NCBI GenBank assembly: GCA_009929795.1
Contig: RZZR01000005.1
Location: 1-48,754, forward strand
Direction of reading: 5' to 3'
DNA: 48,754 nt
DNA from: Deltaproteobacteria bacterium
Lineage (GTDB): Bacteria; Desulfobacterota; Desulfovibrionia; Desulfovibrionales; Desulfomicrobiaceae
Shown here: positions 37,606 to 47,001 of the stretch, piece by piece
Layout of the letters: each line of letters opens with the position of its first letter
How positions within the stretch are numbered: the stretch's first letter is position 1
Made by a program: the position numbers and the translations under genes
The notes under the pieces: model-generated
The model's input: the letters and a program-made list of their open reading frames with translations, nothing else
What the model was told of the DNA's origin: nothing
Database searches by the model: none

Positions 37606-37634
37606 TTGACATTTCGTCCGTTTGGACTCAAAAC
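37606..37634 (+). promoter_or_regulatory. Possible promoter of the MltF-like/cheR-like/cheB unit
   Basis: A perfect TTGACA is followed, after 17 bases, only by CAAAAC, a poor -10. It sits 65 bases before the TTG start. Weak support. Confidence 0.3.
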
Positions 37635-37698
37635 CATCGCATCCGACGTTCTCGACCAAAAACACGACAACAACCATGTTCAGCAGGAGTTTTCCGGT

Positions 37699-39192
37699 TT
37701 GAATCAAAGCTCTCTTCAAGGGCTGACCCACACGGCCTTTCTTGCCCTCTCTCTCGTCCTGGCCCTCATTTCTTCCTCCGAAGCCGGAGAGCCGGACGTG
37801 AAACCCCTGACCCTCATGCGCAGCGCCGAGGTTCACACCGAAGACCTTCCTGTTATGAAGGATCGCAAAGCGATCCGGGTTCTGACCAGCTTTTCCCGAA
37901 CAAACTTCTACATCGAACAGGGACAACTCTCCGGTTTCGAATTCGGCCTGCTCAAGGAATACGAAAAGTACCTGAACAAGGAAAGATCCCGCAAGGAATT
38001 GCCGGTCGTCTTTGAATTCATCCCCCTGCCCCAGAGTCTTCTTCTACCGGCTTTGAAGGCGGGATACGGCGACATCGCCGCTGCGGGTCTGACCGTCACC
38101 GAGGCCAGGATGGAGGAAGCGGCCTTCACCAAATCCTACCTGAGCGGCATTTCCGAGATCGTCATCGGCCACGCCGAGGCACCTCCCATCCATACTCTGG
38201 ACGAACTGTCCGGCCGAGATGTTATGGTTCGTCCAAGCAGCAGCTACTTCGAATCTCTGTTGACCTTGAACGAGAGCCTGAAACACAAGGGTCTTCCCCT
38301 GGTTCGGATCCTGGAGGCCGACGAAACTCTGGCCACCGAGGACATCCTTGAAATCGTCAACTGCGGCGTTGTTCCCTACACTGTTGCCGACAGCCATATC
38401 GCCGAGCACTGGCTCCCGGCCCTTTCCGAACTCCGGAGCTATCCTCAGGCCGCCCTTCGACGGGACGGCCGGATCGCCTGGATGGTCCGCCGAAACAATC
38501 CTAAGCTCCTGGCCGACCTCAACGCCTTCATCGACAAACATAAAAAAGGGACCAAGATCGGCAACATTCTGTTCAAGAGACATTTCTCCCCGACCTCGGA
38601 TCTGAAGAATCCCGTCATGCCCGAAGACAATGCGAAGCGGGAAAAATTCGTTTCCCTGTTCAAAAAATTCGGTCTCCAATACGGCATCGACTGGAAGCTC
38701 GTGGCGGCCCAGGCCTACCAAGAATCGGGTTTCGACCACGGCCAACGGTCACCGGCCGGAGCCATCGGCATCATGCAGATTATGCCCTCTCTGGCGGAGG
38801 ACCCTCGGGTGGGCATTGCCGACATTACCTCGGTGGAGGGAAATATCCATGCAGGGGTCAAGTATCTGGCCCTCATCCGCGACCTCTATTTCGACGAAGA
38901 AAATCTTTCAAACAGCGAACGGATTCGATTCGCTCTCGGGGCCTACAATGCCGGACCGACGAGTATTCGCCGGGCAAGGGATCAAACCGAAAAACTGGGT
39001 TTTGATCCCGACCGATGGTTCCGAAATACCGAATACGGGGTACTGCACAGCATCAGCGAAGAGCCGGTCCGGTATGTGAGCAACATCAACAAATACTATC
39101 TGATCTACTCCCTAGCCGAGGCCATGAACACCCGCAAACAGATGATGAAGCAGAAACTTGAGGCCTCGGCAGAGGGAGCCCCCCGCCCATGA
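37699..39192 (+). CDS. MltF-like lytic transglycosylase with solute-binding domain
   Basis: A 497-residue exported protein, probably starting with TTG at 37699 because AGGAG lies 9 bases upstream and the result is a clean signal peptide (FLALSLVLALISSSEAGEP). Residues about 50-300 form an SBP_bac_3 domain (IRVLTSFSRTNFYIEQGQLS, DIAAAGLTVTEARMEEAAFT, DVMVRPSSSYFESL), residues 330-480 an SLT domain with catalytic Glu in AAQAYQESGFD, AIGIMQIMPSLAEDP and LGAYNAGPTSIRRAR. This is the MltF plan, where the binding domain is allosteric. The stop overlaps the degenerate cheR by 4 bases, so it is translated with cheR-like and cheB, an odd partnership. Confidence 0.88.
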   Translation: MNQSSLQGLTHTAFLALSLVLALISSSEAGEPDVKPLTLMRSAEVHTEDLPVMKDRKAIRVLTSFSRTNFYIEQGQLSGFEFGLLKEYEKYLNKERSRKELPVVFEFIPLPQSLLLPALKAGYGDIAAAGLTVTEARMEEAAFTKSYLSGISEIVIGHAEAPPIHTLDELSGRDVMVRPSSSYFESLLTLNESLKHKGLPLVRILEADETLATEDILEIVNCGVVPYTVADSHIAEHWLPALSELRSYPQAALRRDGRIAWMVRRNNPKLLADLNAFIDKHKKGTKIGNILFKRHFSPTSDLKNPVMPEDNAKREKFVSLFKKFGLQYGIDWKLVAAQAYQESGFDHGQRSPAGAIGIMQIMPSLAEDPRVGIADITSVEGNIHAGVKYLALIRDLYFDEENLSNSERIRFALGAYNAGPTSIRRARDQTEKLGFDPDRWFRNTEYGVLHSISEEPVRYVSNINKYYLIYSLAEAMNTRKQMMKQKLEASAEGAPRP

Positions 39193-39869
39193 ACCAGTTC
39201 GGACATCCCCATCGACTGACCGGGTTCCACATCGAACTACCGCACATCATCGAGGCCGTGGCCGATCCGGTGTCCGGATTCTTTCACAGGCCGAACGACT
39301 TCCTCCAACTCCACGACCACGTGCTGCCAAGACTCTGGGAAAATGTCCGGGTCGAGAAGCCCTGGCTGGATATCTGGCATGCCGGATGCTCGACGGGCGA
39401 GGACACGTATTCCCTGGCCATGCTCCTTTTCGAGTTCGCTTCGGACAATCCCGACTGTGACGCCCAGATTCTGGCTACAGACTTTTCGCGGGAATCGCTT
39501 GATGCCGCATCTCTGGCCGTGTATTCTGAAACCTGCGCCAACAGGCTGTCCTACGAGATGAAGCGCCGCTACCTCCTTCGTAGCCGATCCAGGACCGAAT
39601 CCATGGTCCGCATCCGTCCGGAGATCAGAAACGTGGTTCGCTTCAGACGACTGGACTTCATGGAAGACTTCAACTTCCGTCACGAAATGGACCTTGTCTT
39701 CTGTCGAAATCTCATCCACCTCTTCCATATCCCGGTCCAGCAACGTCTCTTGAGTCGAATCCGTAAGCACATGAGCCCCTGGGCATGCCTCGTCCTCGGG
39801 CATCCTTTGTCCTGGACTGATCACCACCTCGAAGAATTCCTCCCCGGTTTCTACTTCCTCAAGGAGTGA
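39189..39869 (+). CDS. Short, degenerate CheR-type methyltransferase
   Basis: A 226-residue protein matching the C-terminal SAM domain of CheR (WHAGCSTGEDTYSLAMLLFE, ILATDFSRESLDAA, MEDFNFRHEMDLVFCRNLIH). The N-terminal helical domain is missing, and the catalytic stretch that reads TTEFFREP in the full CheR of this window reads VSGFFHRP here (Arg to His). The end GHPLSW also departs from the usual GHSES. It may bind SAM or CheB without methylating. It is coupled by ATGA to the MltF-like gene and is 3 bases before cheB. Confidence 0.82.
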   Translation: MNQFGHPHRLTGFHIELPHIIEAVADPVSGFFHRPNDFLQLHDHVLPRLWENVRVEKPWLDIWHAGCSTGEDTYSLAMLLFEFASDNPDCDAQILATDFSRESLDAASLAVYSETCANRLSYEMKRRYLLRSRSRTESMVRIRPEIRNVVRFRRLDFMEDFNFRHEMDLVFCRNLIHLFHIPVQQRLLSRIRKHMSPWACLVLGHPLSWTDHHLEEFLPGFYFLKE

Positions 39870-39872
39870 CCC

Positions 39873-40946
39873 ATGCCCCCAAAAATCAAGGTCCTCATCG
39901 TCGACGATTCGGCCGTAGTCCGGCAGACCCTGAGCGATATCCTGTCCTCTGATCCGAACATAGAGATCTTCGGCACGGCCTCAGATCCCTATGTGGCCGC
40001 CGAAAAACTCAAGCAAGGCATCCCCGACGTCATCACCCTGGACATTGAGATGCCCCGCATGGACGGGATCACGTTCCTCAAAAAGATCATGACCCAGTAC
40101 CCGATCCCGGTCGTCATCTGCTCCACCCTGACCGAAGAGGGGGCCGAAACCACTCTCAAGGCCCTGGAGTACGGAGCACTGGACATCATCCTCAAGCCAA
40201 AAATCGGAACCAAGCAGTTCTTCGAGGAATCAAAGATTCGGATCTGTGACGCAGTCAAGGCCGCCGCCAATGCCCGACTGAAACCCATCACAATCCACAA
40301 GCCCATCAAGGTGACCAAAAAACTTTCCGCCGACGCCGTCATTCCCAAGTCTCCCGGCGGATCGGCCATGATCCAAACCACGGAAAAAATCGTCGTCGTC
40401 GGGGCATCCACGGGAGGCACGGAGGCCTTGGTCCAACTCCTCCAGGCCATGCCCATGGACTGTCCAGCCATCGCCATCGTCCAACACATGCCGGAAAAAT
40501 TCACCAATGCCTTTGCCAAACGTCTGAACGGCATCTGCGCCATCAGTGTCAAGGAGGCCTCCGACAACGATTCCCTGCTCAGAGGTCAGGCCCTAATCGC
40601 ACCGGGTAACCGGCACATGCTCGTCAAACGAAGCGGGGCACGATATTTTGTCCAGATCAAAGAAGGCCCCTTGGTCTCTCGGCATCGGCCTTCGGTGGAC
40701 GTGCTCTTTCGATCGGCCGCCCGCTACGGGGGCAAGAATGTGGTTGGCGTGATAATGACCGGCATGGGCGACGACGGAGCCAAAAGCATGTTCGAAATGC
40801 ATCAGGCCGGGGCCTACAACATCGCCCAGGACGAGGCCTCGTGTGTGGTCTTCGGCATGCCCCAGGAGGCTATCAAACTCGGCGGGGTGGATAAAATCGT
40901 CTCCTTGGACCGCATCGCCCCGGAGGTTATTCGGGCCGCCTCATAA
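39873..40946 (+). CDS. cheB: Chemotaxis response regulator protein-glutamate methylesterase CheB
   Basis: A 357-residue two-domain enzyme. The receiver (residues 5-120) has phospho-Asp in [13 protein letters not shown]. The esterase (residues 170-355) has the catalytic triad in [14 protein letters not shown] (Ser), [18 protein letters not shown] (His) and [17 protein letters not shown] (Asp). It demethylates or deamidates receptor glutamates. All key residues are present. A hairpin terminator for the opposite strand lies just after it. Confidence 0.96.
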
Positions 40947-41024: not shown

Positions 41025-41420
41025 CTAGAGCAGCTTGAGGTCCTTGAGCTTGGCCACCAATTTGTCCCGGTTGATGGGCTTGGCAAGATACCCTGTGGCC
41101 CCGCCCTGATAATAAGCCTCGAAAACGTTTCTCGGGTCGTCCAGGGCTGTGGTCATGACGATCTTGGCCTCACTTGCCGGCTCGACACCCATCTCCTGCT
41201 CCCGTATCCTGATGTTCTTCAGGGCTTCGTGCCCGTCCATGTTCGGCATCATGATGTCCAGACAAATGAGCTCGTACGGCGCCCTTTCGGCGTGAGCCAA
41301 CTCAAAGGCCTGCATTCCCTCCTTGCCGTCCATGGCGATGTCTACCTCGCCGTAAGGAGCTAGCAAATTCTGTAGAACCTTTCTGCCGATAAAATCGTCT
41401 TCGACGATCAAAATCTTCAT
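41025..41420 (-). CDS. Single-domain response regulator
   Basis: A 131-residue receiver: KILIVEDDFIGRKVLQ, phospho-Asp in LICLDIMMPNMDGHEA, conserved Thr in IVMTTALDD and Lys in LAKPINRDKLV. The ATG at 41420 follows GGGAGGAG with a good gap. It lies opposite to both halves of the chemotaxis cluster, between cheB and the MCP-like gene, as its own unit with its own terminator. It may be an additional CheY-like output or phosphate sink. Confidence 0.92.
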   Translation of the reverse strand: MKILIVEDDFIGRKVLQNLLAPYGEVDIAMDGKEGMQAFELAHAERAPYELICLDIMMPNMDGHEALKNIRIREQEMGVEPASEAKIVMTTALDDPRNVFEAYYQGGATGYLAKPINRDKLVAKLKDLKLL

Positions 41421-41676: not shown

Positions 41677-43506
41677 ATGCATCAGGAATACGACAAACAT
41701 TTCGGCAGACTAGAAACGACCCTGTCCGATGTTCTTCCCTCCCTCAAGGCGGTCATCCACGAGCACGAGACCGACTTCCTGAACCTTGGCCAGGAGATGT
41801 TCTCCATCAACCAGGAAGCTAGGAGCCTCGCCTCCCTGGCCGGAGACCTGGTCGACCAGGCCGGCGGCGAGCACATTGATGCGCCAGTCGCGGCCTTCCG
41901 CCAACACCTCGGACTCACCAGGGATGTCTTTGCCATCGACGCCTTTCAAACAAGTCTGTCCGACATGGAAATCATCGTTGGCAGCATCAACGGCCTGAAC
42001 TCTTTGATCCGTGATTTTCGTCGTCTCATCCGTACTCTGCAGGTTCTGGGCATCTCCACACGCATTGAGAGCGCCCGTCTTGGCAGCGCCGGAAGAGGCT
42101 TCACGACTCTGGCCGACGACGTCGAAACCCTGGCCACAAAAATCGCCGAACACTCGGAGCGCATCGCCTCCGAATGCCAAAATCTCCTGAATCGTGTCGA
42201 AGGAGCTCGAACCACGACCAAAGGCATCCTTGACGGCCAGCTCAGGCTGGCATCAGGCTTCAGCGAACGCCTTCAGGAAAATATCCGCGACTTGGAAGAA
42301 ATGCAGACTAACGCCAGCCGTCGTTCAAACGAACTGAACGACAACAGTGCCGCCATCGCCAAAAAAATGGGCGAGATGGTCGTTTCGGCCCAATTTCACG
42401 ATATCACCAGACAAAAAGTTGAGCACGTCGTCGAAGTACTTGAGCATTGCCTCCAACTTCTAACCAATTTCGAAGAGCAAAGCGGGTCCTTGGAAGACGC
42501 CGTGAGCATCCTCACCTTGGTCTTGGACCTCGTGGACCTCCAGGTTTCTCAGCTCACCAATGCCGGACAAACGTTCCTCAAAGCCGTTTACTCCCTGCTG
42601 GCCAGCCTTGAAGACGTCAGGAATCAGATCTCCGGCCTCTTTCGATTGACGGCCGCGGTAGGCTCGACCGACGTCGAGAATGATTCTCCTCTGATTCGGG
42701 CTCAAAAGGGCATCGACGGTCTGCTCGAGGCGATGACCGAATGCGCATCCCAGGCCGCTGGAATCGGACGGGCCATGGAGGAAGTCGCCTCCACTGTGGG
42801 CGAGATGGTCAAAATGGCCGAGGATATTGAAGAGGTCGGCTCCGAGATTGAGCTCATCGCCCTGAATGCCAGCGTCAGGGCCGCCCATACCGGCGAGGAG
42901 GGTCGGGCCATGGGTGTTCTGGCCGTGGCCATCCAAAAGCTCTCGGGTGACGCCAGGGAACTGACAGATGCGGCCACTGATCGACTTCAGGAGATTTCCT
43001 CGAACTCCCACAAGCTGTTCGAGACCGCAGCCAAGGCTACCGATGCCCGACACGTGCACGAAATGACCGACTCCTTCAACGACATCTTTCAACAACTCCA
43101 TGACATGGAGGACGGGATCACCGAAAACTTCGAACGGGTTCGCGAGGCGGCCGGACGACTGGATGCCAGGATCATGGCCCTCACCGGCGACATCACTTTC
43201 CATGAAAGGGTCGATGCCGACATCCGGACCACAGCCGCCGGGCTAATCGAAACCATCGGATCCGTACGGTCGAAACTCCCGCCCATCGACTCGGAAACTC
43301 TCCTGCGAAATCGTTCCCGGATCGAGGCGCTGCTTCAGAAATACACCATGGATAGCGAACGGGTCATCCACGAGGAGATGTTCGGCCGTAATCATACCAA
43401 AACTGAATCGACCCCCAGGAAAACTGACATGGATGAGGTTGAACTTTTCGACGATTTCTCAGATGATAGAGATGACGATTTGGGCGACAATGTCGAACTC
43501 TTCTAA
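41677..43506 (+). CDS. Soluble MCP-like protein with CheZ-like active-site motif, tandem duplicated
   Basis: A 609-residue helical protein with no membrane segment. Two MCP hairpin-tip-like stretches occur: residues 121-142 (LQVLGISTRIESARLGSAGR) and 391-412 (IELIALNASVRAAHTGEEGR), 270 apart. About 100 residues after each lies a helix like that around the CheZ active site: AQFHDITRQKVEHVVEVLE at 238-256, and a weaker TFHERVDADI at 507. CheZ has FQDLTGQ; its catalytic Asp and Gln (D-x3-Q) match Asp242 and Gln246. The second copy lacks them. The C-terminus is acidic with DEVELF and DNVELF. I infer a scaffold with CheY-P phosphatase activity, but no family is certain. cheY follows 90 bases later. 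The ribosome site is weak. Confidence 0.75.
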   Translation: MHQEYDKHFGRLETTLSDVLPSLKAVIHEHETDFLNLGQEMFSINQEARSLASLAGDLVDQAGGEHIDAPVAAFRQHLGLTRDVFAIDAFQTSLSDMEIIVGSINGLNSLIRDFRRLIRTLQVLGISTRIESARLGSAGRGFTTLADDVETLATKIAEHSERIASECQNLLNRVEGARTTTKGILDGQLRLASGFSERLQENIRDLEEMQTNASRRSNELNDNSAAIAKKMGEMVVSAQFHDITRQKVEHVVEVLEHCLQLLTNFEEQSGSLEDAVSILTLVLDLVDLQVSQLTNAGQTFLKAVYSLLASLEDVRNQISGLFRLTAAVGSTDVENDSPLIRAQKGIDGLLEAMTECASQAAGIGRAMEEVASTVGEMVKMAEDIEEVGSEIELIALNASVRAAHTGEEGRAMGVLAVAIQKLSGDARELTDAATDRLQEISSNSHKLFETAAKATDARHVHEMTDSFNDIFQQLHDMEDGITENFERVREAAGRLDARIMALTGDITFHERVDADIRTTAAGLIETIGSVRSKLPPIDSETLLRNRSRIEALLQKYTMDSERVIHEEMFGRNHTKTESTPRKTDMDEVELFDDFSDDRDDDLGDNVELF

Positions 43507-43596: not shown

Positions 43597-43959
43597 ATGA
43601 CCAAAACGATCATGACCGTCGACGATTCGGCGAGTGTCCGCCAGATGGTGGGGTTCACCCTCAAAGATGCCGGGTACGGAGTCATCGAGGCCTCCGACGG
43701 CAAGGACGCCCTGTCAAAACTCTCTGGCCAGGTCCACATGGTCGTCACCGATCTGAACATGCCGAACATGGACGGCATTGAGCTGATCCGTAGCATCCGG
43801 GCCAACCCGGCCTACAAATTCATCCCCATCGTCATGCTCACCACGGAATCCCAGGATTCCAAGAAACAAGAAGGAAAGGCCGCCGGGGCCACTGGGTGGA
43901 TCGTCAAGCCCTTCAAGCCTGACCAGCTCCTGGCCGTGGTCAAAAAATTGATCCGCTGA
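43597..43959 (+). CDS. cheY: Chemotaxis response regulator CheY
   Basis: A 120-residue receiver in the CheY class: TIMTVDDSASVRQMVGFTL, phospho-Asp in VVTDLNMPNMDGIEL, Thr in VMLTTESQDSKKQ, Lys in WIVKPFKPDQLL. The ATG at 43597 has AGGAG 8 bases upstream. It lies between the MCP/CheZ-like protein and cheA, matching a phosphate flow from CheA to CheY. Confidence 0.94.
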   Translation: MTKTIMTVDDSASVRQMVGFTLKDAGYGVIEASDGKDALSKLSGQVHMVVTDLNMPNMDGIELIRSIRANPAYKFIPIVMLTTESQDSKKQEGKAAGATGWIVKPFKPDQLLAVVKKLIR

Positions 43960-44005: not shown

Positions 44006-46129
44006 ATGTCTGTAGAATCCCAAAATCAACAAGCCTTCCGAGACGAGGCCACGGAGCTGCTCGGAGAACTCGAAAACTCCTTGCTCGAACTCGAACACAA
44101 CCCTGAGGACCAGGAACTGATCAACAGGGTCTTCCGGGCCATGCACACTATCAAGGGCTCCGGGGCCATGTTCGGATTCGAGGACATCGCGACCTTCACC
44201 CACGAGGTCGAAAGCGTCTTTGAACTGGTCCGCAATAAGCTGGTTCCCATCTCTAAACGGCTTCTTGATTTGACCCTTATGGCCAGGGATCAGATTCTGG
44301 CCATGCTCCAAGGGGAGGACTCGGGATCCGGAGACCAGACCCAAACAGTCATCACCGGACTCAAGGAAATCGTCCGCCTGCACGCTCCCGAACAGGAAAA
44401 GACAGCCGTCGAGGAAAAAACGATTCCGAGGGCCGGCGAGATTGGGGACGAGGGCACCAACGTCTTCAGGATCCGCTTCAAGCCCGATCGTCGCATCTTT
44501 CTGACCGGATCCAATCCCTATGGACTGATTCTTGACTTGGCCGATCTTGGCCATGAGAGCCATGTTCTACTGACAGAAGAGGTACCCCTACTCCAGGAAC
44601 TGGATCCAGAATCCTGCTACCTGAGCTGGGACATCCTTCTGTCCACGCCCCAGAACGAGGACGCCGTTAGGGAGATCTTCGTATTTGTCGAGGAGGACTG
44701 CGATCTCCAAATCTCCACCCTCATGACCACCGGGTCCGACATAGACGACTCTGCCCACAAACGTCTCGGCGAAATTCTCATCGACCGGGGTGACCTGACT
44801 GAAGACCAATTGAGGCAGGTTCTCGGCCAGCAAAAACCGCTGGGAGCTCTGCTCGCCGAACAGGGCCTCGTGCCCCCGGCCAAAGTCCGTTCGGCCCTCA
44901 AAGAACAGGAACAGCTCCGGCAGAAGCAGACCGTCGTCCAGCAGCAAAAGCTGGACCAGGGATCGAGCATCAGGGTTCCGGCCGAAAAACTTGACTCCCT
45001 GGTCGATCTCGTCGGTGAGCTGGTCACGGTCCAGGCCCGTCTCTCACAATTCGCTACCCAATTCACCGACACCGCTCTGGTGTCCATCGCCGAGGACCTC
45101 GAGCGACTGAGCGATGAACTCCGGGACAGCACCCTTGGGGTCCGCATGCTGCCCATCGGGACGACCTTCAACAAGTTCAAGCGGCTCGTCAGGGACCTCT
45201 CCAACGACTTAGGCAAAGAGATCGAACTCGTCACCCACGGCGCCGAAACCGAACTGGACAAGACCGTCATTGAGCGTCTGAACGACCCGCTCGTCCACCT
45301 TCTGCGCAACAGCATCGACCATGGCATTGAACTCCCGGACGAGCGTCAGGCAGCGGACAAGCCCAGAACCGGGACCATCGTCCTCACGGCCGAACACTCC
45401 GGAGGAGAGGTCCTCATCCAGATTACCGACGACGGAGCCGGCATCGACCCAACCAAACTTCGGGCTAAGGCCGTGGAGCGCGGGATCATTCTCCCCGAGG
45501 CAGACCTGACCGAACAGGAAATGCTGGGCCTGATTTTCGCGCCCGGTTTTTCCACGGCCGTCAAGGTCACCAATGTGTCCGGCCGGGGCGTAGGCATGGA
45601 CGTCGTCAAGCGGAACATCGACGCTCTCCGGGGACGAATCCACGTTGAAAGCCAGATTGGTCGGGGAACGACCATCAGTATCCGACTCCCGTTGACCCTG
45701 GCCATCATCGACGGCCTCCAGGTTCGGGTCGGCTCGGAATTCTTCATCCTTCCTCTCACCCTCGTCGAAGAATGCGTCGAACTCGTGAACCAGAACGATC
45801 AGGACGAAAAAAAACGGTTCCTCAACCTTAGGGGTGAAATCGTCCCCTACATTCGCCTCAGAAACTGCTTCGGCATCTCTGGACGGCGACCGCCCATCGA
45901 ACAAGTGGTCATCACAACAACCGAGGATCAGCGCATGGGCATCGTCGTCGATACCGTTGTCGGCGAACACCAGACCGTGATCAAAAGCCTCGGCCGCGTC
46001 TACAGGGACGTCAAAGGCCTCTCCGGAGCCACGGTCAAGGGTGACGGAACCTTGGCCCTCATTCTTGACATCCCCGGCCTGGTTCAATCGGTGCAGCCCG
46101 ATAAAGGGTCCATGCAAAAACACGTATGA
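44006..46129 (+). CDS. cheA: Chemotaxis histidine kinase CheA with an inserted helical region
   Basis: A 707-residue kinase. HPt domain at 1-105 with His47 in AMHTIKGSGAMFGF. Residues 150-240 form a mixed domain (VFRIRFKPDRRIFLTGSNP; LSWDILLSTPQNEDAVREIF). Residues 251-300 hold an MshEN-like helical repeat (HKRLGEILIDRGDLTEDQLR and PLGALLAEQGLVPPAKV). Then come dimerisation (LDSLVDLVGELVTVQARL), ATPase (HLLRNSIDHGIE; ITDDGAGID; SGRGVGMDVV) and CheW-like (565-700) domains. A conventional CheY-binding P2 is not obvious. No cheW is nearby. Its stop overlaps cheR by 4 bases. Confidence 0.94.
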   Translation: MSVESQNQQAFRDEATELLGELENSLLELEHNPEDQELINRVFRAMHTIKGSGAMFGFEDIATFTHEVESVFELVRNKLVPISKRLLDLTLMARDQILAMLQGEDSGSGDQTQTVITGLKEIVRLHAPEQEKTAVEEKTIPRAGEIGDEGTNVFRIRFKPDRRIFLTGSNPYGLILDLADLGHESHVLLTEEVPLLQELDPESCYLSWDILLSTPQNEDAVREIFVFVEEDCDLQISTLMTTGSDIDDSAHKRLGEILIDRGDLTEDQLRQVLGQQKPLGALLAEQGLVPPAKVRSALKEQEQLRQKQTVVQQQKLDQGSSIRVPAEKLDSLVDLVGELVTVQARLSQFATQFTDTALVSIAEDLERLSDELRDSTLGVRMLPIGTTFNKFKRLVRDLSNDLGKEIELVTHGAETELDKTVIERLNDPLVHLLRNSIDHGIELPDERQAADKPRTGTIVLTAEHSGGEVLIQITDDGAGIDPTKLRAKAVERGIILPEADLTEQEMLGLIFAPGFSTAVKVTNVSGRGVGMDVVKRNIDALRGRIHVESQIGRGTTISIRLPLTLAIIDGLQVRVGSEFFILPLTLVEECVELVNQNDQDEKKRFLNLRGEIVPYIRLRNCFGISGRRPPIEQVVITTTEDQRMGIVVDTVVGEHQTVIKSLGRVYRDVKGLSGATVKGDGTLALILDIPGLVQSVQPDKGSMQKHV

Positions 46130-47001
46130 AAAGCTCAGGAGCAAGGCCCTCCTCGACCCTGCATCCAATGCCGGCCATGAGCCCGCGTGAATTCGCCAAG
46201 TTCAGCGAATTCATTTCCAAGGAACTGGGAATCAAGATCTCGGACAAGAAGCAGGGAATGCTCCAGGCCCGTCTTCAAAAACGGTTGCGCATCCTTGCCC
46301 TGCCCTCGTTCACCGCCTATTGCGAATATCTCTTCTCCCTAAAAGGAATGGAGATTGAGCTCCCACATCTGGTGGACGCCGTGACCACTAACACAACCGA
46401 GTTCTTTCGCGAACCCAAGCACTTCGATTATATGAACTCCGTCGTCCTGCCCGAGTTCATCGCCCGTGGAGACAACGCGCCGATGGCCATCTGGAGTGCC
46501 GGGTGCTCTTCCGGTGAAGAGCCATATACCCTGGCCATTGTTCTCAACGAGTTCAAGGAAACCCGCGCCCCGCGTTTCCGGTTCGGAATTCTGGCCACGG
46601 ACATTTCCCGAGAGATTCTGGAAAAGGCCATGCGGGCTGTCTACACAGAGGAACGCGTCGAAAAAATACCCTACATGCTGAAGAAAAAATATCTTTTGCG
46701 AAGCAAGGAACGGTCTCGGGGGCTTGTGCGTATCGTCCCGGAACTTCGCAAGCTGGTCCATTTTCGCCAGCTGAATTTTATGGAAGACTTCGGATTTCGG
46801 GAGACAATGCACGTTATCTTCTGCCGCAATGTCATGATTTACTTCGACCGTCCCACCCAGGAACGCCTTATCAACCGCTTCTGCGAACACCTTGACGTCG
46901 GGGGATATCTCTTCATCGGCCACTCCGAGAGTCTGACCGGTCTCCGAGTCCCTCTGATTCAATCCGCTCCCACGGTCTATCGACGAATCAAAAAATCCTA
47001 A
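46126..47001 (+). CDS. cheR: Chemotaxis protein methyltransferase CheR
   Basis: A 291-residue SAM-dependent methyltransferase with both domains: N-terminal helical domain (FAKFSEFISKELGIKISD; LQARLQKRLRIL) and SAM domain (AVTTNTTEFFREPKHF with the key Arg, IWSAGCSSGEEPYTLAIVL, ILATDISREILEKAM, VIFCRNVMIYFD, GHSESL). It methylates receptor glutamates, opposed by CheB. The start at 46126 overlaps the cheA stop; internal ATGs at 46168 and 46177 are possible. Compare the degenerate paralogue at the other end of the cluster. Confidence 0.95.
   Translation: MKSSGARPSSTLHPMPAMSPREFAKFSEFISKELGIKISDKKQGMLQARLQKRLRILALPSFTAYCEYLFSLKGMEIELPHLVDAVTTNTTEFFREPKHFDYMNSVVLPEFIARGDNAPMAIWSAGCSSGEEPYTLAIVLNEFKETRAPRFRFGILATDISREILEKAMRAVYTEERVEKIPYMLKKKYLLRSKERSRGLVRIVPELRKLVHFRQLNFMEDFGFRETMHVIFCRNVMIYFDRPTQERLINRFCEHLDVGGYLFIGHSESLTGLRVPLIQSAPTVYRRIKKS

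Follow-up and report, generated by a model that had tools for sequence, protein, structure and literature searches.

A conserved acidic C-terminal peptide as a candidate CheY-docking tail on a CheZ-like protein derived from chemoreceptors

The acidic tail that ends a 609-residue chemoreceptor-like protein encoded in the window (the whole stretch of 48,754 nucleotides analysed here) is explained best as a CheY-docking peptide on a CheZ-like CheY phosphatase made of two fused chemoreceptor hairpins, a reading to which a probability of roughly 0.55 is assigned. Computation yielded tandem hairpins, an invariant D242-x-x-x-Q246, a near-invariant C-terminal GDN[VIF][ED]LF, expansion of its copy number among relatives, and strict co-occurrence with one CheY. 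The wider proposal, that such proteins form a new class of CheY phosphatase in which a CheZ-type motif was grafted into or arose within a single-chain chemoreceptor, giving signal termination built into the array and 1 to 8 strand-forming docking peptides, is offered tentatively and at somewhat less than even odds.

The gene for the tail protein is flanked on one side by a response regulator of opposite strand and on the other by a CheY-CheA-CheR series; CheB and a short CheR are encoded upstream. The genes of the cluster are as follows.

39189-39869, forward strand: short CheR-like protein, 226 aa, with PF01739 and without CheR_N (PF03705)
39873-40946, forward strand: CheB, a rival candidate partner (PF00072, PF01339)
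41025-41414, reverse strand: stand-alone response regulator, upstream of the tail-protein gene
41677-43506, forward strand: MCP-like single-chain protein with the tail, 609 aa (ORF with PF00015)
43603-43959, forward strand: CheY, the putative tail partner and phosphatase substrate (PF00072)
44006-46129, forward strand: CheA (Hpt, H-kinase_dim, HATPase_c and CheW domains), 3' of the tail-protein gene in most loci
46126-47001, forward strand: CheR, a rival candidate partner (PF01739, PF03705), whose beta-subdomain loop aligns without a gap to 1af7

Directly upstream of the che genes, at 37606-39192, lies a fusion of solute-binding and lytic transglycosylase domains (SBP_bac_3 and SLT). Several Geobacter-type and Desulfohalobiaceae relatives have a regulator upstream on the same strand with 44-59% identity (compare 41025-41414), and several related clusters hold CheR-like ORFs of about 200-250 aa with 28-31% identity to the window CheR (compare 39189-39869). 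NCBIfam NF053729 (cyclic di-GMP-binding, MshE-related) matches residues 251-276 of CheA with an E of 1.2e-9 and 37.8 bits, just short of the cut-off of 38; a c-di-GMP-type module may separate the Hpt and dimerisation domains. One genome (G029) carries the whole module of tail protein, CheY, CheA and CheR twice, at loci L091 and L092.

Of 120 genomes searched in the host order, 43 contain a relative of the tail protein. The order set comprised 30 sequences, namely the window protein and one locus each from 29 of the 42 other matching genomes (those for which a locus was returned), and 24 of the 30 entered the order alignment, A2. A second set of 64 loci was obtained by a profile search of named genomes and covered Desulfovibrionales, Geobacter, Syntrophus, Syntrophobacteraceae, Nitrospirae, Ignavibacteria and one Acidobacteria MAG. 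Alignment A3 contained 54 sequences, the window protein and 53 of the 64 named loci, with L109, L117, L122, L125, L132, L141, L145, L147, L152, L157 and L169 omitted as near-duplicates, as truncated, or on account of a size limit; tail counts use all 64. The order set and the named-loci set overlap partly (G047, for example, is evidently L166), so the two are not independent.

The segments of the tail protein, all on the forward strand, are listed below with their residue numbers.

41677-42498, forward strand: MCP-like hairpin A, residues 1-274, tip near 137 (VIA-align to 2ch7_B 240-512)
42391-42414, forward strand: CheZ-like motif Q239-F-H-D242-I-T-R-Q246 (aligned to CheZ by hhalign)
42478-43269, forward strand: MCP-like hairpin B, residues 268-531, tip near 407 (VIA-align to 8c5v_I 252-516; best PF00015 stretch 360-483)
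43342-43371, forward strand: conserved YTMxSERxxH segment, residues 556-565, at the junction of bundle and tail
43393-43503, forward strand: acidic disordered tail, residues 573-609 (pLDDT below 50 throughout in the AlphaFold model of 609 aa)
43432-43449, forward strand: internal copy DEVELF, residues 586-591 (0 to 7 internal copies among relatives)
43483-43503, forward strand: terminal copy GDNVELF at the C-terminus, in which DNVELF is residues 604-609 (43486-43503)

The C-terminus reads MDEVELFDDFSDDRDDDLGDNVELF and is followed by TAA. The earlier note had described a doubled peptide at the protein end, and this is confirmed: DNVELF, the very C-terminus, starts 18 residues after the start of DEVELF. 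Judged by composition, the doubling is no more than mildly unusual: 230 of 20,000 shuffles of the last 25 residues gave a six-residue pair of equal or greater similarity. A chance repeat is ruled out by conservation in orthologues, composition being insufficient for this. The conservation that the earlier note had proposed to check was found on alignment: N[VI]ELF is the chain end in all 30 order-set orthologues (window included), and [VI]ELF is the chain end in 11/11 further loci read outside that set. All 64 named loci have F as the last residue, E or D at -3, and V, I or F at -4. L at -2 and N at -5 are each present in 62 of them, D at -6 in 55 and G at -7 in 53, and the exact ending GDNVELF is seen in 38. 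The linker residues just upstream of the terminal peptide vary among relatives, and identity to the window protein is 20-35% over the protein body, while the tail is near-invariant across phyla.

Copy number follows the lineage. One copy is present in 13 of the 30 order-set sequences, two in four and 4 to 8 in the others, and among the named loci a single copy is present in 55 of 64 and 2 to 8 in the rest; the largest array, at locus L026, reads ...DDNDVELFGDDNVELFSDDNVELFDDGNVELFGDDNVELF.... The doubling itself is thus lineage-dependent, with the window pair at the low end of the copy range, and the C-terminal copy is never lost. The earlier note's suggestion of a tether whose copies raise local concentration stands in kind, given a disordered segment, a near-invariant peptide and up to 8 copies in relatives.

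At the DNA level, GDN[VI]ELF followed by a stop was found in 35 of the 120 order genomes with one match each, and the reversed control gave 0. In the window's own genome a loose pattern of the type [VIM][DE][LF]F-stop had 9 matches, compared with 7 for its reversed control. TGG takes the place of the stop in 7 of the 9, and the one other match that has a real stop is C125. Three others among 3,404 stop-to-stop ORFs of the named loci end loosely alike, one of them MCP-like and ending GDFEMY. A motif common to unrelated proteins was accordingly rejected, the loose pattern standing near control level and GDN[VI]ELF-stop occurring once per genome.

The body of the protein matches MCPsignal (PF00015) at 58.1 bits against a gathering score of 34.6, and a match was obtained in all 54 members of A3 (E <= 0.01). 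AlphaFold (AF2), run on the 54 sequences, predicted long helices with a mean pLDDT of 86.8, falling below 50 at residues 573-609. Hairpin A was aligned by VIA-align to the Thermotoga maritima receptor 2ch7_B over 270 residues (Z 10.7, rmsd 3.7) and hairpin B to the Escherichia coli receptor 8c5v_I over 260 residues (Z 11.2, rmsd 4.8), scores which unrelated long helical bundles equal or exceed in the VIA list. The hairpin limits were taken from chemoreceptor rows only, the Foldseek and VIA lists also holding many unrelated helical bundles. A receptor tip is present in each half: TRIESARLG near residue 137 (conserved) in the first and ELIALNASVRAAHTG near residue 407 in the second. The tandem-hairpin reading rests on these sequence tips and on PF00015, because unrelated bundles score as high on fold. 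The chain is most likely two full MCP hairpins in tandem, a single-chain version of the receptor dimer; an MCP has one hairpin and one tip per chain, and two of each were found here. Natural single-chain MCP signalling domains are described for Rhodospirillum centenum and a few other microbes in the available part of PMC4692393, where their roles are stated as unknown.

The CheZ-like motif, QFHDITRQ, lies on the helix of hairpin A that returns from the tip. Q239, D242 and Q246 are invariant in all 54 sequences of A3, as is F609 at the chain end, and H241 is kept in 53 and R245 in 52. With hhalign, D242 and Q246 fall on the D-x-x-x-Q of the canonical CheZ sequence SFQDLTGQ, at a pairwise E of 0.0017 and a probability of only 15.5%; SFQDLTGQ itself occurs in 11/11 canonical CheZs of the host order that were read, these having been selected by that motif. 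None of the 37 other MCP-like ORFs in the tail-protein loci has the pattern. The equivalent site in hairpin B (508-514) is not conserved in the alignment of 54, so there is one CheZ-type site per chain. At the junction segment, Y556, T557 and M558 are each kept in 52 of the 54, R562 in 53 and E561 in 54, and helix lengths suggest that YTMxSERxxH comes to lie near the CheZ-like motif. The acidic residue of CheZ that pairs with the receiver lysine is taken to be D143. This pairing, and the role of CheZ Q147, are treated in the portion of PMC3035606 at hand.

The Pfam CheZ family (PF04344) matches residues 168-266 of the window protein at 22.7 bits, below its gathering score of 30.7. Of the 54 members, 8 match PF04344 (E <= 0.01) and 15 match an unrelated family, and the PF04344 match by itself is poor evidence. 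CheZ was not among the matches listed by Foldseek and VIA-align for the 609-aa model, which carries no weight either way. The protein is therefore filed as MCP-derived and not as a CheZ member, being below the Pfam threshold, and it probably works like CheZ. Both the CheZ-type motif and the paired receptor hairpins were absent from the earlier note. A canonical CheZ is also present in the same genome (L087, G000:C144); it ends TQDQVDAILSQMDAK, and the other ten CheZs read end DD/DELLxQLG[LI].

Co-occurrence was scored across the same 120 order genomes as both, protein only and partner only. The window-type CheY orthologue gave 43 both, 0 protein only and 2 CheY only, and the two exceptions are at contig ends (in G069 the position of the tail, in G025 CheY itself). 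For the CheR orthologue the counts were 42, 1 and 18, and for canonical CheZ 38, 5 and 43; the presence of a canonical CheZ in most protein-bearing order genomes (38/43) counts against the phosphatase reading. Among 22 further protein-bearing genomes, CheZ was above the cut-off in 5 and none was above it in 17, and a genome with the tail protein and without CheR was not found (CheR in 22/22). CheR, present in 42/43 and 22/22 genomes, is thus no help in choosing between the hypotheses. The link with CheA is looser than that with CheY: 62 of the 120 genomes have related CheAs, and many of these lack the tail protein. The CheY co-occurrence is partly plain operon linkage, which could account for much of it. 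In genus g21, where CheY is unlinked from the tail protein, CheY was present in 6/6 genomes searched, and it stands beside another cheA in the two genomes read. Loss of D-x-x-x-Q where CheY is unlinked was considered and disproved, HDI[TVA]RQ being kept in 30/30 order-set sequences on alignment.

Fourteen positions of CheY are conserved in 63 orthologues and not in 19 paralogous CheYs. Seven of them (K90, K94, T99, I102, Q110, V114 and K117) lie on the alpha4-beta5-alpha5 face, with a p of 0.017 that must be read with the fact that the face, 27 of 118 positions, was delimited after the list was seen. Its limits on the window CheY are those presumed from E. coli numbering. This face is common to FliM and CheZ binding according to the accessible sections of PMC3774744. 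The nearest solved structure to the window CheY, which has W101, is Vibrio cholerae CheY4 (50% identity), reported in those same sections as not binding FliM (PMC3774744), and a pathway output other than the flagellar switch may be envisaged.

A fused model was built by reading tail, linker and CheY in frame, with no further stop, as a 208-residue chain in which TAA was read as Q; the fold input held the window chain and 41 further rows, ten of them likewise read through. In the AlphaFold model of this chain, the terminal VEL (construct residues 54-56) is the only strand within the tail, and its block has a mean pLDDT of 77 against 45-58 in neighbouring blocks, values that come from one artificial construct with no negative control and with a C-terminus that is not free. 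The only other strands in the model are those of CheY, so the predicted VEL strand would have to pair with the CheY sheet. The structure prediction of tail with CheY that the earlier note had proposed thus gave a strand for the terminal copy, and the internal DEVELF has no assigned structure (block pLDDT 56). As to the partner, the earlier note had left the choice between the receptor type of tail, which binds CheR or CheB, and the CheZ type, which docks on CheY; the invariant D-x-x-x-Q, the one-to-one co-occurrence and the fused model favour the latter, and the former is weaker on two grounds, the residue at -4 and the pentapeptides of neighbouring receptors.

Under the CheY-docking reading, the VELF peptides would capture phospho-CheY by extending its sheet at one edge with a further beta strand, most probably next to beta5 on the alpha4-beta5-alpha5 face. 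The disordered acidic linker of about 40 residues would let D242 and Q246 reach the CheY active site, where Q246, by analogy with Q147 of CheZ, would position the water for attack, and D242 may pair with CheY K104 in the manner of CheZ. The receptor-like tips may hold the phosphatase in the CheA array, and extra copies of the peptide could raise the local CheY concentration or serve as a CheY-P sink.

The alternative that survives best, and which is considered unlikely, is that the tail is a divergent CheR/CheB-binding pentapeptide that tethers CheR (46126) or CheB to the array, with NVELF as the counterpart of EFE[RK]F in the class 34H-like receptors nearby. The tail protein derives from an MCP, two of its tail residues (E at -3, F at -1) agree with EFE[RK]F, F stands at -4 in 7 of the 64 loci, and the CheR counts given above are as this reading expects; the two shared residues suggest, on sequence grounds, that the tail may descend from a CheR-type pentapeptide. 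Its placement is also that of such a pentapeptide, C-terminal and after an MCP domain (PF00015) and a flexible linker. Chemoreceptor pentapeptides have aromatics at positions 2 and 5 (xZxxZ) according to the available text of PMC7390727, and NVELF of the window has V at position 2; no aromatic is present at -4 in 57/64 loci, which have V or I there. L occupies -2 in nearly all loci where receptors have R or K, the upstream G-D-N is conserved too, the internal copies are not C-terminal, and CheR is kept in 18 genomes without the tail protein. Neighbouring MCPs moreover retain EFE[RK]F, hence two distinct tails stand side by side: many neighbouring MCPs in related clusters end FE[RK][FY], and three of seven other receptors in the window's own genome end EFERF, DFERF or DFERY. 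Geobacter class 34H receptors use EFEKF, according to the part of PMC2577667 at hand. With these pentapeptides on neighbouring receptors, the cluster CheR already has its tethers. The beta-subdomain loop of the window CheR is as long as that of Salmonella CheR, where Pseudomonas aeruginosa CheR1 has a 3-residue gap, and the long form recurs in most cluster CheRs in which the loop was found by regular expression; loop length was dropped as a discriminator because EFE[RK]F receptors are present, so that the long form agrees with either partner.

Next in order, and judged improbable, is a multivalent sticker for another partner (CheA, a CheW, or a polar or scaffold protein) that clusters the array, with D-x-x-x-Q structural or serving an unrelated receiver domain. 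Arrays of up to 8 copies do resemble multivalent linear motifs and CheA lies 3' of the gene in most loci, but the related CheAs in genomes without the tail protein, the single copy in most loci (55/64) and the predicted strand on CheY in the fused model speak against it. A C-terminal degradation tag, or a tail with no specific partner and a conservation due to composition, would fit a low-complexity acidic linker but is very improbable, seven residues being conserved across phyla while those just upstream vary, and internal copies existing.

If the phosphatase reading is true, Geobacter and other lineages in which CheZ is reported to be absent would have in this protein a candidate CheY phosphatase. 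A Geobacter survey states, in the portion of PMC2577667 available, that a CheZ-independent mechanism must operate there, and CheC and CheX are also listed. Removal of CheY-P in bacteria without CheZ is not settled everywhere, and a phosphatase shaped like a receptor and carrying its own tether for CheY offers a concrete, testable candidate; no separate anchor would be needed to keep it in the array. Relatives with 1 to 8 docking copies already form a natural experiment on the effect of tether valency on a signalling step, and the tail would be a second C-terminal linear motif in chemotaxis beside the CheR pentapeptide. No description of the tail, or of a CheZ motif in an MCP, was recognised in the accessible portions of the open-licence PubMed Central literature.

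Among known systems, the single-chain MCP domains (R. centenum and a few others, PMC4692393, and the engineered Tsr~Tsr) likewise have two MCP hairpins per chain, whereas neither a CheZ-type motif nor a CheY tether is mentioned for them in the available part of that source. The CheR/CheB pentapeptide of MCPs (NWETF, EFEKF) shares with the window tail its C-terminal position and acidic character, the residues E at -3 and F at -1, and a disordered linker that joins it to an MCP domain; unlike it, the window-type tail mostly lacks the aromatic at -4, has L at -2, has a conserved GDN upstream and is repeated internally. CheZ (PF04344) is alike in the D-x-x-x-Q on a long helix (QFHDITRQ in the window, SFQDLTGQ in CheZs of the order), in the disordered linker to a C-terminal acidic and hydrophobic peptide, and in its pairing with CheY. 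The window protein differs from CheZ in being built on two MCP hairpins in one chain with one motif per chain, in falling below the Pfam cut-off, in a tail that reads GDNVELF where CheZ has VDDLLxQLGL, and in sharing its genome with a canonical CheZ. The N-terminal CheY-binding peptide of FliM, of the DEIDALL type, is also short, acidic and hydrophobic, DEVE-LF resembling DEIDALL by eye only, but it binds CheY as a helix, whereas the window tail is predicted to do so as a strand.
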